A stretch of 64,000 nt of DNA from contig JAIYCQ010000011.1 of NCBI GenBank assembly GCA_027487945.1, forward strand, positions 1 through 64,000. The letters run 5' to 3'. Positions within the stretch are counted from its first letter, which is position 1; each line of letters starts with the position of its first letter. Origin of the DNA: Caulobacteraceae bacterium (GTDB taxonomy: Bacteria > Pseudomonadota > Alphaproteobacteria > Caulobacterales > Caulobacteraceae). Shown here one piece after another: positions 42,272 through 56,346 of the stretch. The position numbers were made by a program, and so were the translations under genes. A model generated the notes under the pieces. The model saw nothing but the letters and a program-made list of their open reading frames with translations. It searched no databases and was not told where the DNA came from.

Positions 42272-43426
42272 ATGAGCGAGCAATCCCATCCCGAGATCCG
42301 TGAGGCCGTCCGCAAGCTGTGCGCGGGCTTTCCCGGCGAATACTGGCGCGCGCTGGACCGCGACCGCACCTACCCGACCGAGTTTGTCCGCACGCTCACG
42401 GAGGCCGGCTTCCTGTCCGTGCTGATCCCCGAGGAATACGGCGGCTCGGGCCTTGGCCTGTCGGCGGCGAACGCCGTGCTGGAGGAAATCCACCGCAGCG
42501 GCGGCAACGGCGGCGGCTGTCACGCCCAGATGTACACCATGGGCACGGTGCTCAAGCACGGCAGCCCCGCCCAGAAGGCCGAGTATCTGCCCAAGATCGC
42601 CAGCGGCGAACTGCGGCTCCAGGCCTTCGGCGTCACCGAGCCGACCGCCGGCACCGACACCACCCGCATCTCGACCTTCGCCAAACGGGTCGGCGACAAG
42701 TACGTCGTCAACGGCCAGAAGATCTGGATCAGCCGGGCCGAGCACAGCGACCTCATGGTGCTGCTGGTCCGCACGACGCCGCGCGAGGAGGCTGCCCGTC
42801 CGGCCGACGGCATGAGCGTGCTGCTGGTCGACATGCGGCAGGCCGTGGGGAACGGCCTCACCATCCGGCCGATCCGCACCATGCTGAACCACGCCACCAC
42901 AGAGCTGTTCTTCGACAACCTCGAAGTGCCGGTCGAGAACCTGGTCGGCGAGGAGGGCAAGGGCTTCCGCTACATCCTCGACGGCATGAACGCCGAGCGC
43001 ATCCTGATCGCCGCCGAGTGCATCGGCGACGGCCGCTTCTTCATCGACCGCTCCTCGGCCTATGCGAAGGACCGCTCGGTGTTCGGTCGGGCCATCGGCG
43101 AGAACCAGGGCGTGCAGTTTCCGATCGCCCGCAACCATGTCCAGCTGTCCGCCGCCGCCCTGATGGTCGACCACGCCGCTGCGCTGTTCGAGGCCGGCCA
43201 GCCCTGCGGCACCGAGGCCAACATGGCCAAGATGCTGGCCAGTGAGGCGTCCTGGGCCGCCGCCGACACCTGCATCCAGACCCATGGCGGCTTCGGCTTC
43301 GCCGAGGAGTACGATGTCGAGCGCAAATTCCGCGAGACGCGCCTCTACCAGGTCGCCCCGATCAGCACGAACCTGATCCTGAGCCATGTGGGCACGCACG
43401 TGCTGGGGATGCCCAAGAGCTTCTGA
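42272..43426 (+). CDS. Acyl-CoA dehydrogenase
   Basis: The 384-residue FAD enzyme would oxidise an acyl-CoA to the enoyl-CoA. It has PEEYGGSGLGLSAANAVLEE, QAFGVTEPTAGTDTTRIST and KIWISRAEHSDLMVLL (FAD and substrate regions), and QTHGGFGFAEEYDVERKFRETRLYQVAP. The usual C-terminal YEG glutamate base is replaced by YQVAP; the base may instead be the Glu in GMNAERILIAAE, as in the isovaleryl and long-chain branches. The substrate is unknown. It stands alone on its strand, and the next gene is a LysR regulator. Confidence 0.9.
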   Translation: MSEQSHPEIREAVRKLCAGFPGEYWRALDRDRTYPTEFVRTLTEAGFLSVLIPEEYGGSGLGLSAANAVLEEIHRSGGNGGGCHAQMYTMGTVLKHGSPAQKAEYLPKIASGELRLQAFGVTEPTAGTDTTRISTFAKRVGDKYVVNGQKIWISRAEHSDLMVLLVRTTPREEAARPADGMSVLLVDMRQAVGNGLTIRPIRTMLNHATTELFFDNLEVPVENLVGEEGKGFRYILDGMNAERILIAAECIGDGRFFIDRSSAYAKDRSVFGRAIGENQGVQFPIARNHVQLSAAALMVDHAAALFEAGQPCGTEANMAKMLASEASWAAADTCIQTHGGFGFAEEYDVERKFRETRLYQVAPISTNLILSHVGTHVLGMPKSF

Positions 43427-43504: not shown

Positions 43505-44401
43505 ATGCGTCTAAGGCATATTGAAGTGTTCCACGCGGTGTATGCGCACGGGTCGATCTCGACCGCGGCGCGGGCGCTGAACGTGTCACAGCCATCGGTC
43601 TCGAAGGTGCTGAAGCACGCCGAGGACCAGCTGGGCTTCGACCTGTTCCGGCGGGTGAAGGGGCGCTTGGCGCCCACCGATGAGGCCCACGCGCTGTTCC
43701 GTGAGGTGAAGGAGGTCTTCGAGCGGCTCGACTCGCTCAAGCAGGCCGCCCGCAACCTTAAGCTCGGCGAGGGGGGGCATATCCGCGCCGCCGTGCTGCC
43801 GGCGTTGGGCCTGGGCGTCGCGCCCGAGGCGGTGGCCCGGTTCCGGGCGGCGCATCCCACGGTGACCTTCGACTTCCGCACCCTGCACTATGACGAAGTG
43901 CTGCGCGGCCTCTACGAGCACGAGGTCGATATGGCGCTGGCCTATGACGCCATCCAGCACCCGCGCATCGCCAACTTCCAGATCGGGACCGGCGAGCTGA
44001 TGCTGATGTTTCCGCGTGGAGAGTTCGGGGCGAACGCCGCCGAGCGGCTGGACCTGGCCGAGCTGGAAACGCGCGAATACATCGGCTCCGGCGCCACCGG
44101 CCCGGTCAGCGAGATCTTCAACCGCGAAGTCGAGGAGCGTGGCCTGACGATCAATGAGCCGGTGACCTGCAGCACCTTCTACATGGCTGCGTCGCTGGTG
44201 CGGAACGGCGTCGGGGTGGCGGTCGTCGACGAATTCACCGCCCGGGCCGACCCGTCCGACAAGGTCGAGTTCCGGCCGCTCGATCCGCCGCTCAGGTTCG
44301 GCGTCTACTGCATGCATCTGGAGGACCGGCCGCTGTCGAACCTGTCGGAGAACTTCATCAGGACGATGGGCCAGGTGCTGGCGGAGAAGAGCGGGGGGTA
44401 G
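43505..44401 (+). CDS. LysR family transcriptional regulator
   Basis: The 298-residue regulator has the N-terminal winged HTH (MRLRHIEVFHAVYAHGSISTAARALNVSQPSVSKVLKHAEDQLG) and a periplasmic-binding-like effector domain. It is 161 bases upstream of dgcN on the same strand. DgcN/DgcA clusters are controlled by a LysR protein called DgcR in marine bacteria, and this gene is positioned to be that regulator. The effector would then be D-glutamate or a derivative, which is inference from context. Confidence 0.88.
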   Translation: MRLRHIEVFHAVYAHGSISTAARALNVSQPSVSKVLKHAEDQLGFDLFRRVKGRLAPTDEAHALFREVKEVFERLDSLKQAARNLKLGEGGHIRAAVLPALGLGVAPEAVARFRAAHPTVTFDFRTLHYDEVLRGLYEHEVDMALAYDAIQHPRIANFQIGTGELMLMFPRGEFGANAAERLDLAELETREYIGSGATGPVSEIFNREVEERGLTINEPVTCSTFYMAASLVRNGVGVAVVDEFTARADPSDKVEFRPLDPPLRFGVYCMHLEDRPLSNLSENFIRTMGQVLAEKSGG

Positions 44402-44562
44402 GCTCTGTCGCCAGTTCCGCTCATCCCGGCATTCGGCGGGGTGAGCGAAACAGAGGGACAGCCCCATAGCTTTTCTTCGTAGGGCAGACCCGCATCTGAA
44501 TTCGACGCCGGGCGGCTCGATCGCGATGGTCCGGCCATCGAAACCAGCCGCCCGAGCCGTCC

Positions 44563-45600
44563 ATGATCTCCTCGCCCTACCTCCTGTACCTTGGCGCCGC
44601 GACCGATCCGCTGGCGGTGAAGACCGCCCGCGGCGTCGCCGAGTGGCGGCCGCAGCTCTGCGTCGGCCAGCGCCGGCTGCCGGGCTGCGCTGTCAGCCTG
44701 GGCCTTGCGGATATGACGGTGATCGAGGCGGCGGCGCGGGGCGCCCGCACGATGATCATCGGCGAGGCCAACGCCGGGGGCGTGCTGAGCGTCGCCGCCG
44801 TGCCGGAGATCGTCGCGGCGCTGGAGGCCGGTCTTGATGTGGCCAGCGGCCTGCACCAGCGGCTGGGCGATGTCCCGGCCATTCGCGAAGCGGCCGAGCG
44901 CCTTGGCCGCAAGCTGTTCGACGTGCGCCAGCCGCCGGCCGACCTGCTGGTCGGCCAGGGGACGCCGCGGTCGGGGCGGCGGCTTCTGACCGTCGGCACC
45001 GACTGCTCGATGGGCAAGATGTACACCTCGCTGGCCCTGGAGCGGGCGATGCGCGCGCGCGGGATCAAGGCTGACTTCCGGGCAACCGGCCAGACCGGCA
45101 TCCTGATCGCCGGCGAGGGGGTTGCGGTCGACGCCGTGGTGGCGGACTTCATCTCCGGCGCCGCCGAAAGGGTCTCCCCGGCCCGCCATGACGGCGGCTG
45201 GGACATCATCGAGGGGCAGGGCTCGCTCTTCCATCCCTCCTACGCGGGGGTGTCGCTGGGGCTGCTGCACGGCAGCCAGCCGGACGCGCTGGTGCTCTGC
45301 CATGAGCCGGGCCGACCCCATATGCGCGGCGTGCCGGGCCATCCGGTGCCGGGCCTGAAGGAGACGCTTGAGCGCAACCTCGAGGCCGCTCGCCTGACCA
45401 ACCCGGATGTCACAGCCGTGGGCGTGGCCTTCAACACCTCGGCCTTCAGCGACGTCGAGGCCGCCCGTCTCTGCGCCGAAGCCGCCGCCGAACTCAATCT
45501 GCCCTGCCAGGACCCTGTCCGGATGGGCGTCGACCAGATCGTGGACACCCTGCTGTCATGCTTCGAAGCTTCGTCGTCTCACGCCGCCGCTGGCCGCTGA
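44563..45600 (+). CDS. dgcN: N-acetyltransferase DgcN (DUF1611)
   Basis: The 345-residue protein has the DUF1611 pattern with a P-loop-like site GTDCSMGKMYTSLALE and LLVGQGTPRSGRR. DgcN acetylates D-glutamate, the first step of a recently described D-glutamate utilisation path whose partner DgcA is a racemase of the acetylated product. ATGQTGILIAGEGVAVDAVVADF and EGQGSLFHPSYAGV are further family blocks. The stop overlaps dgcA by 43 bases. The function is taken from the family name; the N-terminal half is less conserved. Confidence 0.88.
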   Translation: MISSPYLLYLGAATDPLAVKTARGVAEWRPQLCVGQRRLPGCAVSLGLADMTVIEAAARGARTMIIGEANAGGVLSVAAVPEIVAALEAGLDVASGLHQRLGDVPAIREAAERLGRKLFDVRQPPADLLVGQGTPRSGRRLLTVGTDCSMGKMYTSLALERAMRARGIKADFRATGQTGILIAGEGVAVDAVVADFISGAAERVSPARHDGGWDIIEGQGSLFHPSYAGVSLGLLHGSQPDALVLCHEPGRPHMRGVPGHPVPGLKETLERNLEAARLTNPDVTAVGVAFNTSAFSDVEAARLCAEAAAELNLPCQDPVRMGVDQIVDTLLSCFEASSSHAAAGR

Positions 45601-46559
45601 AGGCGCCCTTCCGCATCTCGCGGGGCGTCAAGACCGCGGCGGAGACGGTGATGGTCGAGTTGCGCCGCGGCGCGGCGGCCGGCCGGGGCGAGTCCGTGCC
45701 CTATCCGCGCTACGGCGAAAGCGTCGAGGCGGTCGTCGCGCAACTGGCGACGGTCGCCGCCGCCTTCGAGTCGGGGATGCCGGACGACGCCGTAACCGCC
45801 ATGCTGCCGCCCGGTGCGGCCCGCAACGCCCTGGACTGCGCCCTCTGGGACCTGCGCGCGAGAGAGAGCGGGCGCTCGGTGGCGGCGATGACCGGCCTCG
45901 CGCGACCTGGGCGCCTCGCCTGCGCGGTGACCGTCAGCCTCGACGAGCCGGACGCCATGGCCGCGGCGGCCCGGGCCATCGCCGACGCCCCGGTGGTCAA
46001 GGTCAAGCTCGACGCCGACCGGGTGGAGGAGCGACTGCTCGCTGTAGGGCAGGCGGCGCCCAATTCGCGACTGATCATCGATCCCAACGAGGGATGGACC
46101 ATCGACATCCTGCGCGATGTCCGCCCCCTGCTCGCCCGCCTCAATATCGCTCTGATTGAGCAGCCCCTGCCCGCGGGCGAGGACGCGGCCCTGGCCGGGT
46201 TCGACCCGCCGGCGCCGGTCTGCGCCGACGAGTCGGTGCACACGGTAGCGCAGATGCAGGCCCTGAAGGGGCGCTATCAGGCGATCAACGTCAAGCTGGA
46301 CAAGGCCGGGGGCCTGACCGCGGCGATCGCCTTGCTGGCTGAGGGTCGGCGGCTTGGCTTCACCATCATGACCGGCTGTATGGTCGGGTCGTCCCTGGCC
46401 ATCGCGCCGGCCCTGCATATCGCCGGCGCCTCGGATTTCGCGGACCTCGACGGCCCCTGGTGGCTGGCGGAGGACTGGCCCGACGGGGTGACGCTCGCGG
46501 GCGGCTGGATGAGTCCGCCCGGGCGCGGATTCTGGGGAGAACCCGGCGAGGTTGTATAG
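45558..46559 (+). CDS. dgcA: N-acetyl-D-glutamate racemase DgcA (enolase superfamily)
   Basis: The 333-residue enolase-superfamily protein has the Lys acid/base pair in VVKVKLD and INVKLDKAGGL, and metal ligands in LIIDPNEGW (Asp), LIEQPLP (Glu) and VCADESV (Asp/Glu). It sits in the dipeptide-epimerase/muconate branch. Together with DgcN it would convert N-acetyl-D-glutamate to the L form. The ATG lies inside the end of dgcN (43-base overlap), so the pair is translationally coupled. A dipeptide epimerase role is the main alternative. Confidence 0.9.
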   Translation: MLRSFVVSRRRWPLKAPFRISRGVKTAAETVMVELRRGAAAGRGESVPYPRYGESVEAVVAQLATVAAAFESGMPDDAVTAMLPPGAARNALDCALWDLRARESGRSVAAMTGLARPGRLACAVTVSLDEPDAMAAAARAIADAPVVKVKLDADRVEERLLAVGQAAPNSRLIIDPNEGWTIDILRDVRPLLARLNIALIEQPLPAGEDAALAGFDPPAPVCADESVHTVAQMQALKGRYQAINVKLDKAGGLTAAIALLAEGRRLGFTIMTGCMVGSSLAIAPALHIAGASDFADLDGPWWLAEDWPDGVTLAGGWMSPPGRGFWGEPGEVV

Positions 46560-46574
46560 CGTCTGGTTATGCCA

Positions 46575-46590
46575 TTCCGAAGCGTCGGAA
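46575..46590. promoter_or_regulatory. Inverted repeat upstream of the TonB-dependent receptor
   Basis: TTCCGA-AGCG-TCGGAA is a perfect 6-base inverted repeat, 104 bases before the receptor start. It could be bound by the LysR or XRE regulator of this locus; no second copy was found in the cluster by eye. Confidence 0.35.
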
Positions 46591-46693
46591 AGGCTCCGGT
46601 TATTGGCTGGAGTCGGACGAACGGCGATCCTGCCAGAGACGGCGCAGGACAGGGTGGAATGCCCGCCTGCGCGCACAGAGGGGGTTACGGGAC

Positions 46694-49600
46694 ATGTCCC
46701 ACAAGATCATCACGAGCCTTAAGTTCGCCCTGCTCGCGGGGGCGTCGCTCATCGCGACCAACGCCTGGGCGCAGGACGCCGGCGCCGAGGGAACCGAGGT
46801 CGAGGCCATCACGGTCATCGGCAGCCAGATCAAGGGCGCCAAGATCGATACCGCCCTGCCGGTGACCCTGGTCAGCGAGGACGATGTCGTCGCCACGGGG
46901 GCCGTCTCCGGCGATGAACTGTTCCGGGCCATCCCGCAGGCGGGCGACGTGCAGTTTCAGGAAGCCCGCACCACCGGCAACCTGAATGACGCGCGCGGCG
47001 ATGTGGCGTCGCTGAACCTGCGCAGCCTCGGCACCGGCAACACCCTGATGCTGCTGAACGGTCGCCGTTCGGTCATGCACCCGGGCACCCAGACCGAGAA
47101 CTTCGTTCCCGTCACCACCCCCAACACCAACTCCATTCCGGTCTCCGGCGTGAAGCGGGTCGAGGTTCTGCGCGACGGCGCGGCCGCCATCTACGGGACC
47201 GACGCCGTGGCCGGCGTGGTCAACACTGTTCTGGACACCCGGTTCGAGGGGCTCCGCATGGAGCTGCAGGGCGGCGGGTCGGAGGGCACCGGCTACCGCG
47301 AGGGTCTGTTCACCGTGAAGGCGGGCGCCGAGCTCGACGACGGCACGCGCGTGACCTTCTTCGGCAGCTACACCGGCCGCACCCGGATGAACGCCAGCGA
47401 GCGCGACTACTCCGCCAGCGAGGACCACCGCCCCGGCGTGGTCGGCACGCCGTGGGAAGGCAGCACCGCATTCGACAACCGCTCGACCTCCAGCCCCTGG
47501 GGTTCGTTCAGCGTGGTCGGCCTGACCTCCAGCACCTCGTCGCTGCAGGTCAAGCAGAGCGGCATCAACCTGACCGCCAGCGGCGTGTTCCATATCGAGC
47601 CGGTGGCCAACGCCCTGACCCAGACCGGCGGCTGCAACAGCACCCTGTTCGGCGCCGGCGACATCTGCATCCGCACCGGCGTCACGACCAACACGGCCCA
47701 GCGTCCGCTGCGCTACGACGAGAACCCCGACCGCACGCTTCGGGGCAGCGTCGAGCGGACCAACCTGTTCACCACCATCGAACGGGATATCACCGCCGAC
47801 ATCCTGTTCTACGGCGAGATCGGCTACTACCACTCGCTGTTCAACGGCAGCCGTGAGCAGTCGGCCCCGCTGTCATCGGCGCCGATCAGCATCGCCGCCA
47901 ACGCCTACTGGAACCCGTTCGGTCCGACCGGCAGCCCCAACCGCCTCGCCAACCTGACCAATGTTCCGGCCGGCGGCCTTGCGCTGAACATGACCACCTA
48001 CCGGCCGGTCGACACCGGCCCGCGCAGCTATACCGTGACCGATGACAGTATCCGTCTGCTCGGCGGCCTGCGCGGCAACTGGAACGGCTGGGACTGGGAT
48101 ACCGCCTTCGTCTATTCCGAGGCGCGCACCAAGGACCAGACGCGCAACGCCATCAGCAACACCCTCTTCCAGCAGGCGGTGTCGCGGACGACCTCCGACG
48201 CCTACAACCCCTTCAACGGCGGCTCGCAGGGCGCCTTTTCGCTCGGCGACGGGACGCCCAACAGCCGGGGGACGATCAACTCGTTCCTGATCAACGTCTA
48301 CCGGATCAGCGAGACCTCGCTGGCCCTGTGGGACTTCAAGGTCTCCAACCCCGATCTCTACCAGCTGCCGGCCGGCCCGCTCGGCATCGCGGCCGGCGTC
48401 GAGGTCCGGCGCGAGACCTTCCTGGATGACCGCGACGATCGTCTCGACGGGACGATCACTTACACCAACCCCATCTCCGGCATCACCTACGGCACGGACG
48501 TGATGGGCGCGAGCGGCTCTCCCGACGTCGAGGGCGACCGCAATATCGGCTCGCTTTACGTCGAGCTGGCGATCCCGGTGATCTCACCCGAAATGAACAT
48601 CCCGTTCGTCGAGGAAGTCAGCCTGCAGGTGGCGGCGCGTGACGAGTACTATTCCGACTTCGGCAACGTCCTGAAGCCGAAGGCGGCCCTGCTTTGGAAG
48701 GTCGGCGCCGGGTTCGCCGTGCGCGGCTCGGTCTCGCAGAGCTTCCGGGCCCCCAACCTGCCGCAGTTCTACAGCGACGGGACCACGGTCGCGAACACCC
48801 GCACCGACTGGGCGGCCTGCCGGATCAACAATCCGCCGGCTCCGCCCCCGGCGACCCCGCCGACCTGCACCTCCGCCAGCACCCTGGAAGTGCGGAGCGG
48901 CAATGAGGACCTGATCCCGGAAGAGGCCGACAACGCGACGGTCGGCTTCGTCTACGAGCCCGCGTTCATTCCGCAGGAGTACGGCCAGCTTCTGATCACC
49001 GCCGACTACTGGCAGATTCGCCAGAAGAACGTCATCGGCGTGCTCGGGGCCGCCAACCAGATCGCCTACGACTATCTGCTGCGGCTGAACGGCGGCTCGA
49101 ACCCGAACGTCGTCCGCAATGCCCCCACCGGCCTCAATACGGTCGGCACGATCGACTACGTGAACGACGTCTATGTGAACCTGCAGCCCCGGATGATCGA
49201 AGGCCTCGACGTAACCGTCGAGTACGACCTCGACGACACCGCCTTCGGCGACTTCAACTTCAAGCTCAACGGGGCCCAGCTGCTGGGCTACGACCAGAGC
49301 CCGGGCGAGATCGAGAAGATCCTGATCGAGGCGATCAACGACGGCACCCTGGTCGGTCCGACCGTCGCCAGCGCCGGCAGCCGGGTCGCCATCGACGGCT
49401 ATCCGGAGTTCCGGGCCACGGCGACCATGACCTGGCGCAAGGACGGCTGGGGCGCGGGCCTGTTCGTCAACTACGTGGGCGCGGTCTACGACACCGGCCC
49501 GGCGCAGGTGGACAACCGCTACTACGAGCTCGAAGCCTGGACGACGGTCAGCCTCTACGGCCAGTACGCCTTCAAGGACGGCATGCTGGACGGCTCCACC

Positions 49601-49729
49601 GTCCGTGTCGGGGTCCGCAACCTCGAGGACAAGGACCCGCCGCTGGCCTCGAACAACTTCGGCTACCTGGGCGCGCTGCACAACTCGACCGGCCGCTACT
49701 GGTACGCTTCGCTGAGCAAGCGCTTCTAG
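46694..49729 (+). CDS. TonB-dependent outer-membrane receptor
   Basis: The 1011-residue protein has a signal peptide (MSHKIITSLKFALLAGASLIATNAWA), a TonB-box-like segment (EVEAITVIGSQI), a plug domain (SLNLRSLGTGNTLMLLNGRR; VEVLRDGAAAIYGTDAVAGVVN) and a beta-barrel ending in the aromatic C-terminal YWYASLSKRF. It imports a ligand too large for porins, using TonB energy. Its place between dgcNA and the symporter/GGT genes suggests gamma-glutamyl peptides or another glutamate-containing compound. The receptor type is otherwise not diagnosable. Confidence 0.95.
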   Translation: MSHKIITSLKFALLAGASLIATNAWAQDAGAEGTEVEAITVIGSQIKGAKIDTALPVTLVSEDDVVATGAVSGDELFRAIPQAGDVQFQEARTTGNLNDARGDVASLNLRSLGTGNTLMLLNGRRSVMHPGTQTENFVPVTTPNTNSIPVSGVKRVEVLRDGAAAIYGTDAVAGVVNTVLDTRFEGLRMELQGGGSEGTGYREGLFTVKAGAELDDGTRVTFFGSYTGRTRMNASERDYSASEDHRPGVVGTPWEGSTAFDNRSTSSPWGSFSVVGLTSSTSSLQVKQSGINLTASGVFHIEPVANALTQTGGCNSTLFGAGDICIRTGVTTNTAQRPLRYDENPDRTLRGSVERTNLFTTIERDITADILFYGEIGYYHSLFNGSREQSAPLSSAPISIAANAYWNPFGPTGSPNRLANLTNVPAGGLALNMTTYRPVDTGPRSYTVTDDSIRLLGGLRGNWNGWDWDTAFVYSEARTKDQTRNAISNTLFQQAVSRTTSDAYNPFNGGSQGAFSLGDGTPNSRGTINSFLINVYRISETSLALWDFKVSNPDLYQLPAGPLGIAAGVEVRRETFLDDRDDRLDGTITYTNPISGITYGTDVMGASGSPDVEGDRNIGSLYVELAIPVISPEMNIPFVEEVSLQVAARDEYYSDFGNVLKPKAALLWKVGAGFAVRGSVSQSFRAPNLPQFYSDGTTVANTRTDWAACRINNPPAPPPATPPTCTSASTLEVRSGNEDLIPEEADNATVGFVYEPAFIPQEYGQLLITADYWQIRQKNVIGVLGAANQIAYDYLLRLNGGSNPNVVRNAPTGLNTVGTIDYVNDVYVNLQPRMIEGLDVTVEYDLDDTAFGDFNFKLNGAQLLGYDQSPGEIEKILIEAINDGTLVGPTVASAGSRVAIDGYPEFRATATMTWRKDGWGAGLFVNYVGAVYDTGPAQVDNRYYELEAWTTVSLYGQYAFKDGMLDGSTVRVGVRNLEDKDPPLASNNFGYLGALHNSTGRYWYASLSKRF

Positions 49730-49761
49730 GCCCCCATCGGGTTGAGGACGCCACAGGTGAG

Positions 49762-49804
49762 TCCGCGGGGCGGCGCCGTCATGACGGCGGCTCCGCCCCG
49801 CGGA
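49762..49804. promoter_or_regulatory. Long hairpin after the TonB receptor
   Basis: TCCGCGGGGCGG (49762-49773) is the exact complement of CCGCCCCGCGGA (49793-49804), and the loop holds the perfect palindrome GCCGTCATGACGGC (49775-49788). A near-perfect extended stem results. No T-run follows, so partial termination, mRNA stabilisation or processing between receptor and symporter is more likely than a full terminator. Confidence 0.65.
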
Positions 49805-49941
49805 GAGTCTGCCGGGCCGTGGGCGGGCGCCAGATGGGCTCTCGTCAACGGTCGTCCGGCGATTGAAGATGGATGTCCGACTCTGGCGCTCACCGGCAAT
49901 GGCCTGCGCCGTCCCGCCCATCCTGAATGGAAGCGCCCTGC

Positions 49942-51246
49942 ATGACTGAAACCTCCAATCCCCCCGCGGACGCGCCGAAGAAGCCCGGCGTCCTCGGCAG
50001 CATCGCCGGGCTGTGGTTCGCGATCCCGCTGTGGCAACGGATCCTCGCGTCCCTGCTGGCCGGCGGGATCGCCGGCTACCTTTGGGGCCCGGGCGCCGCC
50101 TCCATCAAATGGATCGGCGACCTGTTCGTTCTGCTGATCCGCATGGCGGTGATCCCGCTGGTGCTGGTCACCATCGTCTCCGGCGTGGCCGCCCTGGGCG
50201 ACGCCCGCCGCCTGGGGTCGATCGGCGTCAAGACGCTGCTGCTCTATCTGTTCACCACCTCCATCGCCGTGGTCGTGGGCCTTTCGCTCGGGACCTTCGC
50301 CCAGCCGGGCGTCGGCGCCGATTTCTCGGCCGCCACGCCGCAGGTTCTGAACGCCACCGAGTCGGTGGGGCTGAAGATCACCGACGTCGTGCCCGCCAAC
50401 GTCTTCAAGGCGCTGGCCGACGGGGCCCTGCTGCCCACCATCTTCTTCGCTCTACTGCTGGGCGCGGCGATCCTGGCCACCGGTGAGAAGGGCAAGCCGA
50501 TGGCCGTCCTCTTCGAGTCGGCTTCCGAGGTGATGCTCAAGGTCGTGGCCATCATCATGGAGCTGGCGCCGTTCGGGGTCTTCGCCCTGATCGCAACGGT
50601 CATGGGAACCACGGGCCTGAAGGTTTTCGCCAGCATCGGCGTGTTGGCCCTCTGCGTGCTGGCCGGGTCGATGTTCCAGACCTTCGTCGTGCATTCGCTT
50701 GTCGTACGCCTGATGGCCTGGCTGCCCGTGGTTCCCTTCTTCCGCGGTATCACCGACGCCATGCTGGTGGCCTTCTCCACCTCGTCGAGCTCCGCCACCC
50801 TGCCGGTCGCGATGCGGGTCGCGGAAGAGAACCTCGGTATCAAGCCGGCCGTCGTCTCCACGGCGCTGCCGTTGGGCACCACGGTCAGCATGGACGGCAC
50901 CGCCCTCTACATCGGCCTGCTGGCCACCTTCGCCGCCCAGGCCTTCGGCGTGCAGCTGAGCCTTGAGCAGTACCTGCTGATCGGGGTGACCACGGTGATG
51001 GTCGCGGTCGGCACCGCGCCGGTGCCCTCGGCCTCGCTGTTCATGCTGGCCGGGGTGCTGACGACATTCGGCATCACGCCGGAGCAGACGGCAATCCTGG
51101 TCGGCTTCATCCTGCCCTTCGACCGGATCCTCGACATGATCCGGACGGTCCCCAACAACACCAGCGACCTCGCCGTGGCGACGGTGGTGGCCCGTTGGGA
51201 GAACGAGATCGATGTCGAGGTCTACAAGTCTTCCAAGGATGTCTGA
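49942..51246 (+). CDS. Dicarboxylate/amino acid:cation symporter (DAACS family)
   Basis: The 434-residue carrier has the family's serine-rich signature STSSSSATLP and the binding-site block GTTVSMDGTALYIGLL, FILPFDRILDMIRTVPNNTSDL. Eight or more membrane helices are evident. DAACS members import glutamate, aspartate or C4-dicarboxylates with Na+ or H+. RTVPNNTSD near helix 8 keeps an Arg at the position that distinguishes amino-acid from dicarboxylate types in GltP/GltT, favouring neither firmly. Context points to glutamate. It is followed three bases later by the first GGT. Confidence 0.92.
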   Translation: MTETSNPPADAPKKPGVLGSIAGLWFAIPLWQRILASLLAGGIAGYLWGPGAASIKWIGDLFVLLIRMAVIPLVLVTIVSGVAALGDARRLGSIGVKTLLLYLFTTSIAVVVGLSLGTFAQPGVGADFSAATPQVLNATESVGLKITDVVPANVFKALADGALLPTIFFALLLGAAILATGEKGKPMAVLFESASEVMLKVVAIIMELAPFGVFALIATVMGTTGLKVFASIGVLALCVLAGSMFQTFVVHSLVVRLMAWLPVVPFFRGITDAMLVAFSTSSSSATLPVAMRVAEENLGIKPAVVSTALPLGTTVSMDGTALYIGLLATFAAQAFGVQLSLEQYLLIGVTTVMVAVGTAPVPSASLFMLAGVLTTFGITPEQTAILVGFILPFDRILDMIRTVPNNTSDLAVATVVARWENEIDVEVYKSSKDV

Positions 51247-51249
51247 CCC

Positions 51250-52980
51250 ATGCGCCTGATCCGTTTCTGGCTGGCGGCCCTCGCGGCCCTGTCGGTGGCC
51301 ATCGCGCCGCTGGCCCAGGCCCAGCCGCAACGCCGCCAGCTCCTCGAGTACCCCTCCATCCACCATCCGGTGGTGGGGACGCGAGGGATGGTGGTGAGCC
51401 AGAACGCGATCGCCACCGAGGTCGGGGCCGAGATCCTGCGCAAGGGGGGCAACGCCGTCGATGCGGCGGTGGCCGTGGGCTTCGCCCTGGCGGTCACCCT
51501 CCCCAGGGCCGGCAACATCGGCGGCGACGGCTTCATGCTGGTCCACATCGCCGAGACCGGCAAGACCGTCGTCATCGACTTCCGCTCCGTCGCGCCGGCC
51601 GCGGCGACCCTGGCCATGTTCGTCAACAACAGGGGCGAGGAAACCACGCGTGCCTCTCGGGGCTACCGGGCCTCGGCCGTGCCGGGCACGGTGGCCGGCC
51701 TGGCTCTGGCGCACAGGCAGTACGGCAAGCTGCCCTGGAAGGACGTGGTCATGCCGGCCTGGCGGCTGGCGGCGGAGGGGGTCGTCCTGACGCCGGACGA
51801 GGCCTTCGTCTTCGGCTGGGCCCAGGAGCGGATGACCGAGAGCGCCGCCGGACAGCGGACCTTCTACAAGGCGGGCGGCGAGCTCTACAAAGCCGGTGAG
51901 ACTCTGAAGCAGCCTGACCTCGCCTGGTCCCTGAAGCAGATCGCCGACCATGGGGCCGACGCCTTCTACAGGGGCGAGATCGCCCGCCGCTTCGCCGCCG
52001 ACATGAAGGCCAACGACGGCCTCATCACCCTTGAGGATCTCGCCGCCTACAGGCCGGTGGTGCGCGAGCCGCTGATGGGGACCTATCGCGGCTACACCGT
52101 GGCGACCACGCCGCCGGCCAGCGCCGGCGGGGCCACCCTGCTGCAGATGCTCAACACCCTGGAACACTTCGACCTGAAGGCGCTCGGCGGCGCCGGCTCG
52201 TCGGGCGCGCTGCATGTGATGGCCGAGGCCATGAAGCTGGCCTATGCCGACCGCTACCGTGTGCTGGGTGACACCGACTTTGTGAAGGTCCCGCTGAAGG
52301 GCTTCACCTCGAAGGCCTACGGGGAGGAGCGCGCCCGGCTCATCGACGTCGAGAAGGCCAAGCCCGCAAAGGCGATGGGCGCCGGCGACCCCTGGAAGTA
52401 CGAAAGCCCCAGCACCACCCACTACAGCGTCGCTGACGCGGCCGGGAACGTGGTCAGCACGACCTACACCCTCGGCGCCGACTTCGGCTCGGGGGTGATG
52501 GTCGAGGGGACAGGCTTTGTCCTCAACAACCAGATGAACAACTACAGCCATGAGCAGGCATTCGAGGCCGCGGCGGAGGGCGAGCCGGCGCCGCTGAACG
52601 CCATGGCGCCGGGCAAGCGGATGCTGTCGACGATGATGCCGACCATCGTTTTCAAGGACGGCAAGCCCTGGCTGATCACCGGCACGCCCGGGGGCAGCAC
52701 CATCATCGACACCGTGCTGCAGGTGATCGTCAACGTCATCGACTTCAATCTGAACGTCGCCGAGGCGACGCATCAGCCGCGGATCTTCCAGGCGGCGACC
52801 GACACGCTCGAGGTCGAGCCCAACTTCAATCCGGATACGGTCGCGGCGCTCCGCGCCAGGGGCCATCCGGTCAAGACCGCCGAGACCATGGGCAGCGCCC
52901 AGTCCATCATGATCGACAAGGGCCTGTTCCTGGGCGCCGCCGATCCTCGCCGTCCGGGCGCGCTCGCGGTGGCGCCGTGA
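51250..52980 (+). CDS. ggt: Gamma-glutamyltransferase 1 (altered donor pocket)
   Basis: This 576-residue, periplasmic (signal MRLIRFWLAALAALSVAIAPLAQA) Ntn hydrolase matures by cutting before T389 in STTHYSV, the nucleophile. The Arg in VIDFRSVAP, which holds the donor carboxylate in E. coli, is kept, and PGGS forms the oxyanion side. Two pocket residues differ: the Asp of NNQMDDFS (E. coli D433) is Asn (NNQMNNYS), and the double Ser of LSSM is LSTM. It overlaps the second GGT by four bases (GTGA). Confidence 0.93.
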   Translation: MRLIRFWLAALAALSVAIAPLAQAQPQRRQLLEYPSIHHPVVGTRGMVVSQNAIATEVGAEILRKGGNAVDAAVAVGFALAVTLPRAGNIGGDGFMLVHIAETGKTVVIDFRSVAPAAATLAMFVNNRGEETTRASRGYRASAVPGTVAGLALAHRQYGKLPWKDVVMPAWRLAAEGVVLTPDEAFVFGWAQERMTESAAGQRTFYKAGGELYKAGETLKQPDLAWSLKQIADHGADAFYRGEIARRFAADMKANDGLITLEDLAAYRPVVREPLMGTYRGYTVATTPPASAGGATLLQMLNTLEHFDLKALGGAGSSGALHVMAEAMKLAYADRYRVLGDTDFVKVPLKGFTSKAYGEERARLIDVEKAKPAKAMGAGDPWKYESPSTTHYSVADAAGNVVSTTYTLGADFGSGVMVEGTGFVLNNQMNNYSHEQAFEAAAEGEPAPLNAMAPGKRMLSTMMPTIVFKDGKPWLITGTPGGSTIIDTVLQVIVNVIDFNLNVAEATHQPRIFQAATDTLEVEPNFNPDTVAALRARGHPVKTAETMGSAQSIMIDKGLFLGAADPRRPGALAVAP

Positions 52981-54725
52981 GCGGGCTGCTGCACCGGATC
53001 GTCGCCGGCCTCGCCATCACGGCGATCCTGGCGGCCGGGTCGGTCGGCGCGACTCCCCCGCAGGTCGCGCAGGCCGCGCCTGCCCCCTCGTCGTCCCCGT
53101 CGTCCGGCGGCTTCGTCGCCGCGGCCAATCCGATGGCTGTGGAGGCCGGGCTGAACGTCCTGCGGCGCGGCGGCAGCGCCGTGGATGCAGCGGTCGCCGT
53201 GCAGGTGATGCTGGGCCTCGTCGAGCCTCAGGCCAGCGGCATCGGCGGTGGCGGCTTCCTGATGCACTATGACGCCGAGACCGGCGAGGTCACGGCCTGG
53301 AACGGTCGCGAGACCGCGCCGGCGGCGGCATCGCCGTCGATGTTCCTCGACGAGAACGGCGCCCCCTTGCCGAGGGCCGACGCCATGCGCAGCGGACGCG
53401 CCACCGGGGCGCCGGGCGCCATGGCGATGCTGGAGGCGGTGCACCGGGTCCACGGCAGGCTGCCCTGGAATGCGTTGTTCGAGGAGACGGCCGTCCGGGC
53501 CGAGCAGGGATTCACCGTCACCCCGCGGATGGCCGACCAGATCGTGCGCTTCGCAGCCACCGACCGGACGCCCGACGCCCGGGCCCTGTTCGCGCGGCCC
53601 GACGGGGCGCCGCTGCAGGCCGGCGATCTCTACAGGAACGCCCCCTATGCCGGCGTGATGCGCCGGATGGCCGCCGAAGGGGCCCGGGTGCTCAACACCG
53701 GTCCGATCGCCGAGAAGATCGTCGCCCGCACCACGGCCGCGCCCTATGGCGGCAGCATGACGCTGGCCGATCTGGCCGGTTACCAGCCGCAGCAGATCCC
53801 GGCCCTGTGCAAGCCCTACCGGGTCCACATCATCTGCGTGCCTTCGCCCCCGGCCAGCGGGGTCGGCCTGCTTGAACTCCTCGGCCTGCTCGAACGCACC
53901 GATATCGACAGGCGCGGCCCGGCCGACCCGCAGGCCTGGTTCCTGTTCGCAGAGGCCAGCCGGGTGATGTACGCCGACCGCGACCGGTATGTCGGCGACC
54001 CGCGCTACGTCCAGGTGCCGGTCGCGGGCCTGCTCGAGCCGGCCTATCTCGACCAGCGCGCCCGTCTGATCGGCGAGCGGGCGTCCGCTGTGCCGCCCGG
54101 GGCCGGAAAGCCGTCCGGCGCGGTGTTGGCCGGGATCGACATGACCCATGAGCCGGCCGGCACCACCCATTTCGTCATCGTCGACAGGGACGGCGACGTC
54201 GTCTCCATGACCACGACAGTCGAGACCTATTTCGGCTCCGGACGGGTGGTCGAGGGCTTCCTGCTCAACAACCAGATGACGGACTTCTCCTTCAACCCGC
54301 TGGAGAAGGACGGCGCCCCCGCCGCCAACGCCGTGGCGGGCGGCAAGCGGCCCCGCTCGTCGATGACGCCCGTGATCATCCTCGACCAGAAGGGCCGCTT
54401 CGTCGGTGCGGTCGGCTCGCCCGGCGGCAACGCCATCCCCGCCTATGTCGCCAAGACGCTTGTCGGGGTCCTCGACTGGAAGCTGCCGATGCAGCAGGCG
54501 ATGGACCTGCCCAACCTCGTGGCCCGGGGGGGCGACTTCAACGGCGAGGTCCACAAGTTCGCCCCGGGCGTGGCGGAGGGGCTGATGGCCCGCGGCGTGG
54601 AGGTCCGGCGCGGCTCGGGCGAGGAAAGCGGGATCCACGGCGTGATGGTGGTCGAGGGTAGCCTGGTCGGCGGCGCCGACTCCCGCCGTGAAGGCGCCGC
54701 CAGATCCCTTGAGCCCGAGACCTGA
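52977..54725 (+). CDS. ggt: Gamma-glutamyltransferase 2
   Basis: The second GGT (582 residues) starts at a GTG overlapping the first by four bases. It has a signal-like N-terminus (VAGLAITAILAAGSVGA), self-cleavage at T396 in GTTHFVIVD, the Arg in NGRETAP, NNQMTDFS with the conserved Asp, SSMTP with both serines, and GSPGGN. All classic donor-binding positions seen are intact, unlike GGT 1. It should hydrolyse or transfer gamma-glutamyl groups in the periplasm. The pair is expressed from one transcript. Confidence 0.93.
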   Translation: MSGLLHRIVAGLAITAILAAGSVGATPPQVAQAAPAPSSSPSSGGFVAAANPMAVEAGLNVLRRGGSAVDAAVAVQVMLGLVEPQASGIGGGGFLMHYDAETGEVTAWNGRETAPAAASPSMFLDENGAPLPRADAMRSGRATGAPGAMAMLEAVHRVHGRLPWNALFEETAVRAEQGFTVTPRMADQIVRFAATDRTPDARALFARPDGAPLQAGDLYRNAPYAGVMRRMAAEGARVLNTGPIAEKIVARTTAAPYGGSMTLADLAGYQPQQIPALCKPYRVHIICVPSPPASGVGLLELLGLLERTDIDRRGPADPQAWFLFAEASRVMYADRDRYVGDPRYVQVPVAGLLEPAYLDQRARLIGERASAVPPGAGKPSGAVLAGIDMTHEPAGTTHFVIVDRDGDVVSMTTTVETYFGSGRVVEGFLLNNQMTDFSFNPLEKDGAPAANAVAGGKRPRSSMTPVIILDQKGRFVGAVGSPGGNAIPAYVAKTLVGVLDWKLPMQQAMDLPNLVARGGDFNGEVHKFAPGVAEGLMARGVEVRRGSGEESGIHGVMVVEGSLVGGADSRREGAARSLEPET

Positions 54726-54736
54726 GACCGCCGGCC

Positions 54737-55645
54737 ATGCACCGTACCGCCACCCTGGCCGCCTGGGCCGTTGCTGCAGCCCTGTCGATGGTTCCGGCCG
54801 CGGCCTGGTCACAGGATGAGGACGCGTCCGTCGCGCCGACGGCGCGCGCACCGGTCCAGCAGGTCTCCATCCGCAGCCTCGCCGACGGCAAGCCTGTGCT
54901 GACCGGCTATCTGTTCAAGCCTGCGGAGGGCTCGGGCAAGGCGCCGGCCATTGTCCTGCTGCACACCCGGGACGGCGCCTATTCGAGCCGGGCCGGCGGC
55001 GACTACCGGGCCACGACCCTGACCCCGCGCTTCAAGAGTTGGGGGCAGTTCTGGGCCGCGCGTGGCTACTACGTCCTTCTGGTCGACAGCTACGGCGCGC
55101 GCGGTTTTCCCGAAGGCTTCGCCGACACACCGGCAAAGGACCGCCCCGACAGTGTCGACGACGTCGACGTCCGCCCCCTCGACGCCTATGGCGCGCTGCA
55201 ATACCTGCGCGCCCTGCCGGAGGTGGACGGCGACCGCATCGGCCTGATGGGCTTTTCCAACGGCGGCAGCGCCGCCCTGGCGACGATGGCCGACGACAAG
55301 CCCGGAGACATGCGCAAACTCGGCTTCCGCGCGGCGGTCGCCCTCTATCCTGGCTGCGTACTGAACAAGCGCTTCGACAGGCAGGGCTACAGACCTTACG
55401 CCCCGGTGCGTCTGTTCATGGGCGAGTCCGACAGGGGCGCTTCGCCGGGCATCTGCGAGGCGCTTGTCGATCGCAGCCGCAAGGCGAAGGGCGATATCGA
55501 GCTGACCCTCTACGCCGGCGTCGGGCACGGCTTCGATGAGCCTGGCCGCCGGACCCAGGAGGTCGAGCTCAACGCGAAGGCGACGGCGGACGTCCGGGCG
55601 CGCGCAGAGGTGTTTTTTCAACGAGCACTTGCACCTCGCAACTGA
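54737..55645 (+). CDS. Dienelactone-hydrolase-like alpha/beta hydrolase, exported
   Basis: The 302-residue protein has a signal peptide (MHRTATLAAWAVAAALSMVPAAAWS), the nucleophile motif GLMGFSNGGSAAL, a catalytic acid expected in LFMGESDRGASP and the His in AGVGHGFDEPG. VLLHTRDGAYSSRAGG and ARGYYVLLVDSYGARGFPEG are family-type. It is periplasmic and probably hydrolyses a lactone, ester or peptide-like bond; the substrate is unknown. It begins 11 bases after the second GGT and shares its transcript, suggesting a role in processing the imported compound. Confidence 0.82.
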   Translation: MHRTATLAAWAVAAALSMVPAAAWSQDEDASVAPTARAPVQQVSIRSLADGKPVLTGYLFKPAEGSGKAPAIVLLHTRDGAYSSRAGGDYRATTLTPRFKSWGQFWAARGYYVLLVDSYGARGFPEGFADTPAKDRPDSVDDVDVRPLDAYGALQYLRALPEVDGDRIGLMGFSNGGSAALATMADDKPGDMRKLGFRAAVALYPGCVLNKRFDRQGYRPYAPVRLFMGESDRGASPGICEALVDRSRKAKGDIELTLYAGVGHGFDEPGRRTQEVELNAKATADVRARAEVFFQRALAPRN

Positions 55646-55731
55646 GTTGCCTTTAAACACGCCCAGCTATCGGGGCGGCTTCGGACTCGTGGCCTGTGGC
55701 CCGTCGGCAAGTTTGGTGTTTTCAGGAAGCC

Positions 55732-56346
55732 ATGAGTTCGCGTCTTTCCGCCAAGGCGGGTCTCGCCATCCGCAAGCTCCGGCTCGCAGGTGGGTGGACC
55801 CTCGCCCAGCTCAGCGAGCGCTCCGGCGTGCCGCTGTCCACCCTGTCGAAGGTGGAACTCGGCCAGACCTCGCTGAGCTATGAGAACCTGCTGCGTATCT
55901 GCAAGGGCCTCGAGATCGACATGGCCCGTCTGATCGGCGCCGAGGCCGACGGGATGTTGGGGACCTCGGCGACATCGACCGCCGCGCCGGTCGCGCTTGG
56001 CCGGCGGGCGGTGGTCAAGGCCGGCCAGGGCGAACCGGTCGCGCTGCCCTGGGGACCCGGCGAGGTGGGCGCCGCTGACCTGATCCGTAAGGCCTTTACC
56101 CCGACCCTCTGTCAGGTCGACGCCACCTCGGTGGAGGCCCAGGGCGGATTCCGGTACGGCGAGGGCGAGGCTTGGCTCAGCGTGCTGGACGGGGCGCTGT
56201 CCCTGCATTGCGAGATATACGCCCCGCTACATCTCGTCGCGGGTGACGGCGTCTACTTCGATGCCCGCGCCGGCTATGCGCTGGTCAGGGACTCCGAAAC
56301 GCCCTGCAAGGCCTTGCTGGTCACGGTCGGCGACAGTCGGGCCTGA
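55732..56346 (+). CDS. XRE-type regulator with cupin-like sensor domain
   Basis: The 204-residue protein has an N-terminal HTH_3 (AIRKLRLAGGWTLAQLSERSGVPLSTLSKVELGQTSLSYENLLRICKGLEID) and a C-terminal beta-rich domain with cupin features (LHCEIYAPLHLVAGDGVYFDARAGYAL). Regulators of this build often sense small metabolites such as amino acids. It ends the GGT locus, on the same strand, 86 bases after the hydrolase. AGGAAG precedes the ATG. The target genes are not known, but the neighbouring GGT/DgcNA genes are the natural guess. Confidence 0.85.
   Translation: MSSRLSAKAGLAIRKLRLAGGWTLAQLSERSGVPLSTLSKVELGQTSLSYENLLRICKGLEIDMARLIGAEADGMLGTSATSTAAPVALGRRAVVKAGQGEPVALPWGPGEVGAADLIRKAFTPTLCQVDATSVEAQGGFRYGEGEAWLSVLDGALSLHCEIYAPLHLVAGDGVYFDARAGYALVRDSETPCKALLVTVGDSRA

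Follow-up and report, generated by a model that had tools for sequence, protein, structure and literature searches.

The locus analysed here raises the question of why two gamma-glutamyltransferase (GGT) genes stand side by side, one of them with an altered donor pocket, and which substrate the altered enzyme takes. The genes lie in a 64,000-nucleotide stretch of a Caulobacteraceae contig (JAIYCQ010000011.1), hereafter the window, and are referred to as GGT1 (51250..52980, + strand, 576 aa) and GGT2 (52977..54725, + strand, 582 aa).

Two GGT genes in tandem

Both proteins match the PF01019 (G_glu_transpept) profile far above its cut-off of 27 bits (GGT1, 592.3; GGT2, 466.0). Against TIGR00066, GGT1 scores 553.7, above the cut-off of 357.85, and GGT2 falls under it at 343.0. 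Modelled with AlphaFold2 (mean pLDDT 89.7), GGT1 superposes on the E. coli GGT precursor with a Z of 55.2 and an rmsd of 1.4 over 489 residues, and the two share about half of their residues (52%). Compared with the B. halodurans 'cephalosporin acylase', the same model gives a Z of 50.8 at 33% identity. Among solved structures, the best matches of GGT1 are GGTs, and the 'cephalosporin acylase' 2nlz comes third by fold and fifteenth by sequence.

The two open reading frames (ORFs) overlap by four bases, GTGA. Upstream, a symporter gene ends 3 bp before GGT1; downstream, 11 bp separate GGT2 from a gene for a dienelactone-hydrolase-like protein (54737..55645, + strand; Pfam DLH, 54.9 bits). Nine of the 80 GGT1-homologue loci described below have a homologue of this protein next to GGT1 and GGT2. 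The pair may therefore share one transcript, as the initial annotation had held, the one observation in favour being this tight spacing. A consensus scan of positions 44300-55800 returned no promoter-like sites (shuffle mean 0.5) and two terminator-like sites (shuffle mean 3.6).

The donor pocket of GGT1

Residues of GGT1 and GGT2, each in its own numbering, were compared with E. coli GGT (PDB 2e0w, and K-12 ggt from NC_000913.3). The GGT1 motifs LNNQMNNYS and RMLSTM align without gaps to LNNQMDDFS and RPLSSM of E. coli, placing N431 (codon 52540..52542, + strand) at D433 and T461 (codon 52630..52632, + strand) at S463; S460 corresponds to S462. The initial annotation had read exactly these two substitutions from the sequence, together with an Asp (D436) and a Ser-Ser pair (S461/S462) retained in GGT2, and both alignment and predicted structure bear it out. 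It had overlooked three further changes, namely Gly at N411 (G409, codon 52474..52476, + strand), Asn at D432 (N430) and Ala at the lid residue Y444 (A442, codon 52573..52575, + strand; the lid equals that of E. coli in length, with no gap), and it does not mention the D-glutamate context. With N411 and Tyr444 of the lid also gone, the case for an altered pocket is stronger than first stated.

The catalytic machinery is otherwise that of E. coli Ggt (PDB 2e0w/2dbu): GGT1 retains the catalytic Thr (T389, E. coli Thr391), the second Thr of the TT pair, the oxyanion glycines (G481-G482, E. coli Gly483-Gly484) and the carboxylate-binding Arg (R112, E. coli Arg114), with T396, G483 and R111 as the counterparts in GGT2. 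The difference lies at the canonical alpha-amino contacts (Asn/Glu411, Gln/Glu430, Asp433). GGT2 retains all three, as Glu416, Gln433 and Asp436, and has a shorter lid with no aligned Tyr444. GGT1 has Gly409, Gln428 and Asn431 and, as judged from the alignment, is without two of the three contacts and without the N411-Y444 gate. Because residues that normally recognise a free amino group are lost, GGT1 probably cuts an unusual glutamyl peptide, either D-configured or N-blocked.

The pocket is conserved across a clade

We compared 80 loci with GGT1 homologues, many of them on short contigs. Gly411 and Asn433 are present in all 53 loci with a GGT of no less than 60% identity to GGT1, and in 8 more distant loci as well, for a total of 61. 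In the tree, Gly411 is paired with a non-aromatic residue 444 in 53 of 53 rows, whereas 23 of 24 N411 rows retain the aromatic. The GGT1 pocket is not a chance oddity of a single sequence. A single origin of Asn433 was rejected, since a quick tree requires at least two changes; according to this tree and the neighbour survey, MNGN-type GGTs gained Asn433 independently and without D-Glu-type neighbours. The tree was built without 15 near-duplicate or truncated loci, without ORFs no longer than 480 aa and without part of the Caulobacteraceae loci.

A putative D-glutamate operon around the pair

The + strand run that contains the pair reads, in order, LysR, DgcN, DgcA, TonB receptor, symporter, GGT1 and GGT2. 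The LysR-type gene (43505..44401, + strand; Pfam HTH_1 and LysR_substrate) is a candidate regulator of the operon, and its homologues adjoin DgcN or a D-amino-acid dehydrogenase in related loci. DgcR is the LysR regulator of the DgcN-DgcA operon; a LysR gene is present here, and no DgcR model is among the best 25 of 53 NCBIfam matches.

DgcN, the N-acetyltransferase of the D-glutamate route (44563..45600, + strand; NF041892 equivalog, 522.9 bits, cut-off 480), and DgcA, the N-acetyl-D-Glu racemase (45558..46559, + strand; NF042940 equivalog, 424.3 bits, cut-off 400), are adjacent, and their ORFs overlap as called. Both enzymes of the pathway named in PMC10845958 are thus represented above equivalog cut-offs, and the difference is that here they accompany two GGTs and a TonB-dependent receptor (46694..49729, + strand; Pfam plug and barrel, scanned as ORF 46460-49726). 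A D-amino-acid dehydrogenase was not found in the window's own genome at E 1e-20, where DgcN-DgcA is present. The dicarboxylate/amino acid:cation symporter (49927..51246, + strand; Pfam SDF, 356.6 bits) is GltP/DctA-like and a candidate D-Glu importer; GltP is its best NCBIfam match, at 221.6 bits and far under the cut-off of 638.

D-glutamate genes recur beside related GGTs

Neighbours were surveyed around the same 80 loci, ignoring blast matches to less than 40% of the query length; the counts come from related loci and are not independent observations. DgcN, DgcA or a D-amino-acid dehydrogenase lies near 27 of the 61 Gly411/Asn433 loci (29 when an N-acyl-D-amino-acid deacylase is counted), and a glutamate-type symporter near 20. 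The most constant partner is the TonB receptor, near 53 of the 61. The 14 N411/D433 loci, in contrast, have none of the D-Glu genes with or without the deacylase, no glutamate-type symporter and a single TonB receptor. Restricted to loci in which at least 8 kb precede and at least 6 kb follow the GGT, the count of loci with D-Glu genes is 21 of 40 for Gly411/Asn433 versus 0 of 12 for N411/D433.

The partner genes vary between lineages. In Sphingopyxis (L026) and similar loci the same gene run is found with a D-amino-acid dehydrogenase replacing DgcN-DgcA; the L026 enzyme scores under the NCBIfam cut-off (340.9 vs 383). Eight xanthomonad cousins of GGT1 (GLGN type) all have DgcN, DgcA or the dehydrogenase, with GltS in 7, the deacylase in 7 and GGT2 in 6; GltS, DgcA and DgcN were confirmed above cut-off in one of them, L055. 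Several related loci add an N-acyl-D-amino-acid deacylase that would be exported: the N-terminus is signal-like or lipobox-like, as judged by eye, in 9 of 11 copies, the other two N-termini not being visible. In a PDB search, the L037 copy matched D-aminoacylase (E 3e-70) and N-acyl-D-glutamate deacylase (E 5e-64), and a Leu/Arg position bears on the D-aminoacylase subtype, as described in PMC12017989.

The link is not universal to the Gly411/Asn433 clade, a possibility that we rejected. DgcN, DgcA and the dehydrogenase are all missing nearby in 34 of the 61 loci; 13 genomes of such loci yielded a dehydrogenase in 2 and a deacylase in 4 (E 1e-40). Of 25 genomes with GGT1-type loci, 9 gave a DgcN match; among the 22 without DgcN in the locus, 6 have it elsewhere in the genome. 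The pocket is therefore also present in genomes that yielded no D-Glu route. Among 60 GGT loci of Caulobacteraceae (chosen from the top and middle of the matches listed, the window's own excluded, some stretches short at contig ends), a homologue of the TonB partner stands beside every one of the 8 N433 GGTs and beside none of the other 52, and D-Glu genes occur in only 2 of the 8; this sample overlaps the 80 loci, L044/L131 and L038/L132 having identical GGTs. Across 385 genomes of the class, DgcN was matched in 102 and GGT1-like proteins (E 1e-130) in 13, with only the window's own above 52% identity; in the family sample, DgcN was found in 18 of 119 genomes. Linkage is therefore a trait of some lineages. 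A literature search, which covered few subscription papers, found no paper joining a GGT with a D-amino-acid dehydrogenase or DgcN in one operon.

Proposed function of GGT1

We propose, with a probability of roughly one half, that this operon scavenges D-glutamate and that GGT1 serves in it as a variant GGT hydrolase acting on gamma-D-glutamyl or N-blocked gamma-glutamyl amides. Gamma-glutamyl peptides would enter the periplasm via the TonB receptor, and the two GGT-family enzymes, both presumably exported, would cleave the gamma-amide bond with their Thr nucleophile. GGT1 would grip the alpha-carboxylate of the donor through the retained Arg, Ser and Thr and hardly grip its amino group (N411G, D433N); because of this weak grip and the missing N411-Tyr444 gate, it would hydrolyse, rather than transfer, donors with a D-configured or blocked alpha-amino group. 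In relatives, an exported deacylase would convert N-acyl-D-Glu to D-Glu. The freed D-Glu would be imported by the glutamate-type symporter and turned into L-Glu by DgcN-DgcA, or in sphingomonads be oxidised by the D-amino-acid dehydrogenase instead.

The neighbours, DgcN and DgcA here and the dehydrogenase, deacylase and glutamate symporters in relatives, point to D-glutamate. Counting against it, 34 of the 61 loci with this pocket have no DgcN, DgcA or dehydrogenase nearby, the deacylase has been lost from the window itself, and the symporter scores far under the GltP cut-off. CapD, a GGT-family enzyme of poly-gamma-D-glutamate capsules, acts on gamma-D-glutamyl bonds; it shares the GGT fold, is remote from GGT1 (Z 27.3, with 35% identity in the large chain) and belongs to another organism and another role. 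D-Gln is accepted as a donor by E. coli GGT, according to PMC8062742. If the D-glutamate reading is right, a substitution that the papers describe for engineered enzymes and for class IV acylases would be the mark of a conserved subfamily of natural GGTs with a role in physiology, and how the DgcN-DgcA pathway is supplied with D-glutamate could be tested.

A plainer explanation is that GGT1 is an ordinary hydrolase for L- or D-glutamyl peptides, for example poly-gamma-glutamate fragments, whose pocket changes merely suppress transpeptidation, the pair providing dosage or breadth on the acceptor side. As described in PMC8062742, E. coli D433N keeps about 82% of its hydrolytic activity with transpeptidation mainly abolished, and S463T loses about 40% of activity; the Asn alone therefore predicts no switch away from glutamyl donors. 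The glutamate-holding Arg, Gln430 and both hydroxyls are still in GGT1, and a TonB partner suits oligomer uptake. However, all 53 clade rows have lost both N411 and the aromatic lid residue, which goes beyond what stopping transpeptidation needs, and D-Glu and D-amino-acid genes recur. We consider this explanation rather unlikely.

A bolder proposal, which we regard as speculative and on the whole unlikely, is that GGT1 founds a subfamily cutting N-blocked gamma-D-glutamyl peptides internally, such as peptidoglycan stems of L-Ala-gamma-D-Glu-diaminopimelate. Removal of the amino clamp and the lid gate would have made room for the N-acyl group, an exported N-acyl-D-glutamate deacylase would free D-Glu, and DgcN-DgcA or the dehydrogenase would consume it. 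If true, D-glutamate from the cell wall would be consumed by way of the periplasm.

The initial annotation favoured donors without a free alpha-amino group, and of its options N-acylated glutamyl groups fit best; none of the neighbours profiled points to glutarate. GGT1 might instead cleave, as an acylase, the amides of glutaryl or other dicarboxylic acyl groups, leaving glutamyl donors to GGT2; this is chemically possible and, in our view, quite improbable. In its favour, the D433N variant of E. coli GGT has activity on glutaryl-7-ACA, and Asn occupies this position in class IV cephalosporin acylases, as the initial annotation had stated in part and as PMC8062742 and PMC11421214 describe; D433N/Y444A/G484A improved the E. 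coli acylase up to 50-fold (PMC8062742). GGT1 shares Asn433 and a non-aromatic 444 with these engineered enzymes, and differs in being natural, in having Gly411 in addition and in retaining G484. Class IV acylases share the Asn (N431 in GGT1) according to PMC8062742; GGT1 closely resembles E. coli GGT, its model lying slightly nearer to it than to the B. halodurans protein, and sits in a putative D-Glu operon. Moreover, the recurrent neighbours that were identified are D-Glu or D-amino-acid genes, none of the chosen neighbour proteins profiled being glutarate-specific, and the acyl-CoA dehydrogenase upstream (42272-43426) reaches 212 bits against a glutaryl-CoA dehydrogenase cut-off of 470. 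On the neighbours profiled, we rejected the glutarate reading of the context and kept glutaryl donors as a rival. GGT1-type GGTs may offer natural templates for acylase engineering, with positions 411, 433 and 444 changed jointly.

It is highly improbable that co-inheritance alone joins the D-Glu neighbours to the GGT pair, with GGT1 serving the ligand of the TonB receptor and having no part in glutamate feeding: the constancy of the receptor and the 34 loci without D-Glu genes, several in genomes without a detected route, fit this, but two different D-Glu routes occupy the same operon place and the link is present in three lineages.

A deacylase relic beside the symporter

Directly 5' of the symporter lies a 91-bp relic (49833..49923, + strand) of the 3' end of an N-acyl-D-amino-acid deacylase gene. 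It is 88-89% identical to positions 8260-8350 of L005 and 8584-8674 of L006, within the deacylase ORFs there, and in the same frame encodes the C-terminal residues of those deacylases. Because of where the relic's stop falls, the ATG at 49942 is a more likely start of the symporter than the called 49927.

The donor pocket of GGT1

GGT1 (51250-52980, forward strand) and GGT2 (52977-54725, forward strand), two genes of the gamma-glutamyltransferase (GGT) family, lie head to tail and share four bases. Both proteins exceed the cut-off of the Pfam profile PF01019, with GGT2 scoring slightly below that of the NCBIfam profile TIGR00066; two additional GGTs are found on other contigs of the same genome.

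The initial annotation placed an Asn at the position of E. coli D433 in GGT1, together with a Ser-Ser to Ser-Thr change. Alignment with E. coli GGT, ungapped across the pocket, confirms Asn433 and Thr463 and extends the alteration to Gly411 (Asn in E. coli) and Ala444 (Tyr in E. coli); in E. coli numbering the GGT1 residues are R114, T391, G411, Q430, N432, N433, A444, S462, T463, G483 and G484. GGT2 retains the canonical Asp and both serines, as annotated (R114, T391, E411, Q430, T432, D433, S462, S463). An AlphaFold2 model of GGT1 from 42 aligned sequences (mean pLDDT 89.7) finds the E. coli GGT precursor as its top match (Z 55.2, rmsd 1.4, 489 residues), and model residues 434-442, aligned to the E. 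coli lid, are helical.

According to the review PMC8062742, B. subtilis GGT holds the alpha-amino group of the donor through positions 411, 430 and 433 and the alpha-carboxylate through Arg113 and two serines, while in E. coli GGT a Tyr444-Asn411 bond forms a gate over the pocket. Judged by these roles, GGT1 keeps the carboxylate clamp and has lost two of the three amino contacts, along with both gate residues. For E. coli D433N this review describes a loss of transpeptidation, about 82% residual hydrolysis and a gain of glutaryl-7-ACA acylase activity, as stated in the initial annotation; adding Y444A and G484A raises the acylase activity up to 50-fold, and S463T costs about 40% of activity.

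Conservation of the pocket

A single scan across named genomes found 189 GGT1 relatives, and the best 80 loci were retained. The closest named loci, L005 and L006 (GGT1 93% identical), indicate that the window probably comes from a relative of Caulobacter. Among these 80, G411 occurs with N433 in 61, M411 with N433 in 5 and N411 with D433 in 14; all 53 loci with a GGT at least 60% identical to GGT1 carry G411 and N433. One such GGT (62% identical, G-Q-D-N at positions 411-430-432-433) lies on a contig titled Klebsiella pneumoniae MAG, a label that seems to reflect faulty binning.

A quick tree of 110 GGTs, computed with the pocket columns excluded, unites the G-Q/E-N/D-N proteins in a single clade (support 99), whose sister group is the xanthomonad G-L-G-N GGTs (support 91). 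In the underlying alignment, residue 444 is non-aromatic in 53/53 G411 rows and aromatic in 23/24 N411 rows, and the pocket changes travel jointly throughout the GGT1-type clade. M-N-G-N GGTs are placed away from this clade, so at least two changes to Asn433 are required. These proteins (L061, L064, L067, L069 and L077, from Acidobacteria, Gemmatimonadota and others), with Met411, Asn430 and Gly432, gained Asn433 separately and kept the aromatic lid residue; the stretches examined around them hold no D-glutamate or TonB neighbours.

Gene neighbourhood

Profile scans identified a LysR gene, DgcN, DgcA, a TonB receptor and an SDF-family symporter upstream of GGT1, and a DLH-like gene downstream of the pair. 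DgcN and DgcA, each above its NCBIfam equivalog cut-off, are named as a route from D-glutamate to L-glutamate in PMC10845958. An acyl-CoA dehydrogenase gene (42272-43426) directly precedes the LysR gene and is also present in L005 and L006. In Sphingopyxis and similar loci, a D-amino-acid dehydrogenase replaces DgcN-DgcA in the same gene run (in L026, Pfam DAO 217 bits; NCBIfam D-amino acid dehydrogenase 340.9 bits, below the cut-off of 383).

Several loci additionally encode an Amidohydro_3 protein; for the L037 copy, structure matches include D-aminoacylase and N-acyl-D-glutamate deacylase. By eye, 9 of 11 copies of this deacylase seem to be exported or to bear a lipobox, the N-terminus of the other two not being visible. 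Its gene lies between the TonB and symporter genes in L005, L006 and L130, whereas the window has no intact copy there. A relic at 49833-49923 shares 88-89% identity with the end of the L005/L006 gene and still encodes, in frame, the C-terminus of those deacylases, so the gene has been deleted from the window. A homologue 42% identical is present elsewhere in the genome, on contig C35.

Partner sets vary among eight xanthomonad loci with GGT1 cousins: GGT2 (6/8), GltS (7/8), deacylase (7/8), dehydrogenase (5/8), DgcN (4/8) and DgcA (3/8). Near the xanthomonad GGT pair (L055:11711-12931 and L052:4504-5760) are also an AmpH-like serine hydrolase, below the AmpH cut-off and with a Pfam Beta-lactamase match, and a MATCAP-family (PF08014) gene, possibly parts of a larger D-peptide degradation island.

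Neighbours were counted within about 10 kb of the GGT in the best 80 of the 189 loci; since the loci are related by descent, all such counts are descriptive and carry no probability. For G411/N433, M411 and N411/D433 loci respectively, DgcN, DgcA or the dehydrogenase was nearby in 27/61, 0/5 and 0/14, a TonB receptor in 53/61, 0/5 and 1/14, and a glutamate-type symporter in 20/61, 0/5 and 0/14. Among loci whose sequence extends 8 kb or more ahead of the GGT and 6 kb or more beyond it, the D-glutamate enzymes were found in 21/40 G411/N433 loci versus 0/12. A second sample comprised 60 GGT places taken from those listed for 119 Caulobacteraceae genomes. Its eight N433 loci carry a TonB receptor homologous to that of the window (8/8), the symporter (3/8) and D-glutamate genes (2/8), each 0/52 at the other GGT loci.

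Proposed function

The best reading of the locus, we infer, is an operon that scavenges D-glutamate from gamma-amides; the literature searches found no description of this operon type. The presence of a TonB receptor points to a ligand that may be too large to pass through porins. The pocket suggests that GGT1 would fix its donor via the alpha-carboxylate, the amino group being D-configured or acylated, unlike that of gamma-L-glutamyl donors; acylation is plausible because relatives carry the deacylase. Liberated D-glutamate would enter through the symporter, and GGT2 would take gamma-glutamyl compounds with a free amino group. Against this, DgcN, DgcA and the dehydrogenase are absent nearby in 34 of the 61 G411/N433 loci, and a sample of the genomes behind those 34 often yielded no DgcN, dehydrogenase or deacylase; D-glutamate may therefore be used in only part of the clade.

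GGT1 could possibly be a plain hydrolase, since the D433N mutant of E. coli GGT retains the ability to hydrolyse gamma-glutamyl donors. Glutaryl donors, among those proposed initially, are chemically possible. The initial interpretation is supported in part, gene context shifting the likely donor from glutaryl to N-blocked or D-gamma-glutamyl.

Other pocket variants were met. In a Caulobacteraceae GGT adjoining a TonB receptor (L177, G113:C48), R114 is replaced by Tyr, N411 by Thr, Q430 by Ser and D433 by Asn, the carboxylate Arg thus being lost too. In Sessilibacter corallicola (L065), a canonical GGT shares its locus with a second one that has Ser411, Gln430, His432 and Thr433. A GGT-like subfamily (L171, L178, L182) in which Ser replaces R114 and Leu replaces D433, on a long branch away from the remaining GGTs in the quick tree, is perhaps another amidase; a copy in the window's own genome (C12:25512-27044) has a similarly odd pocket.
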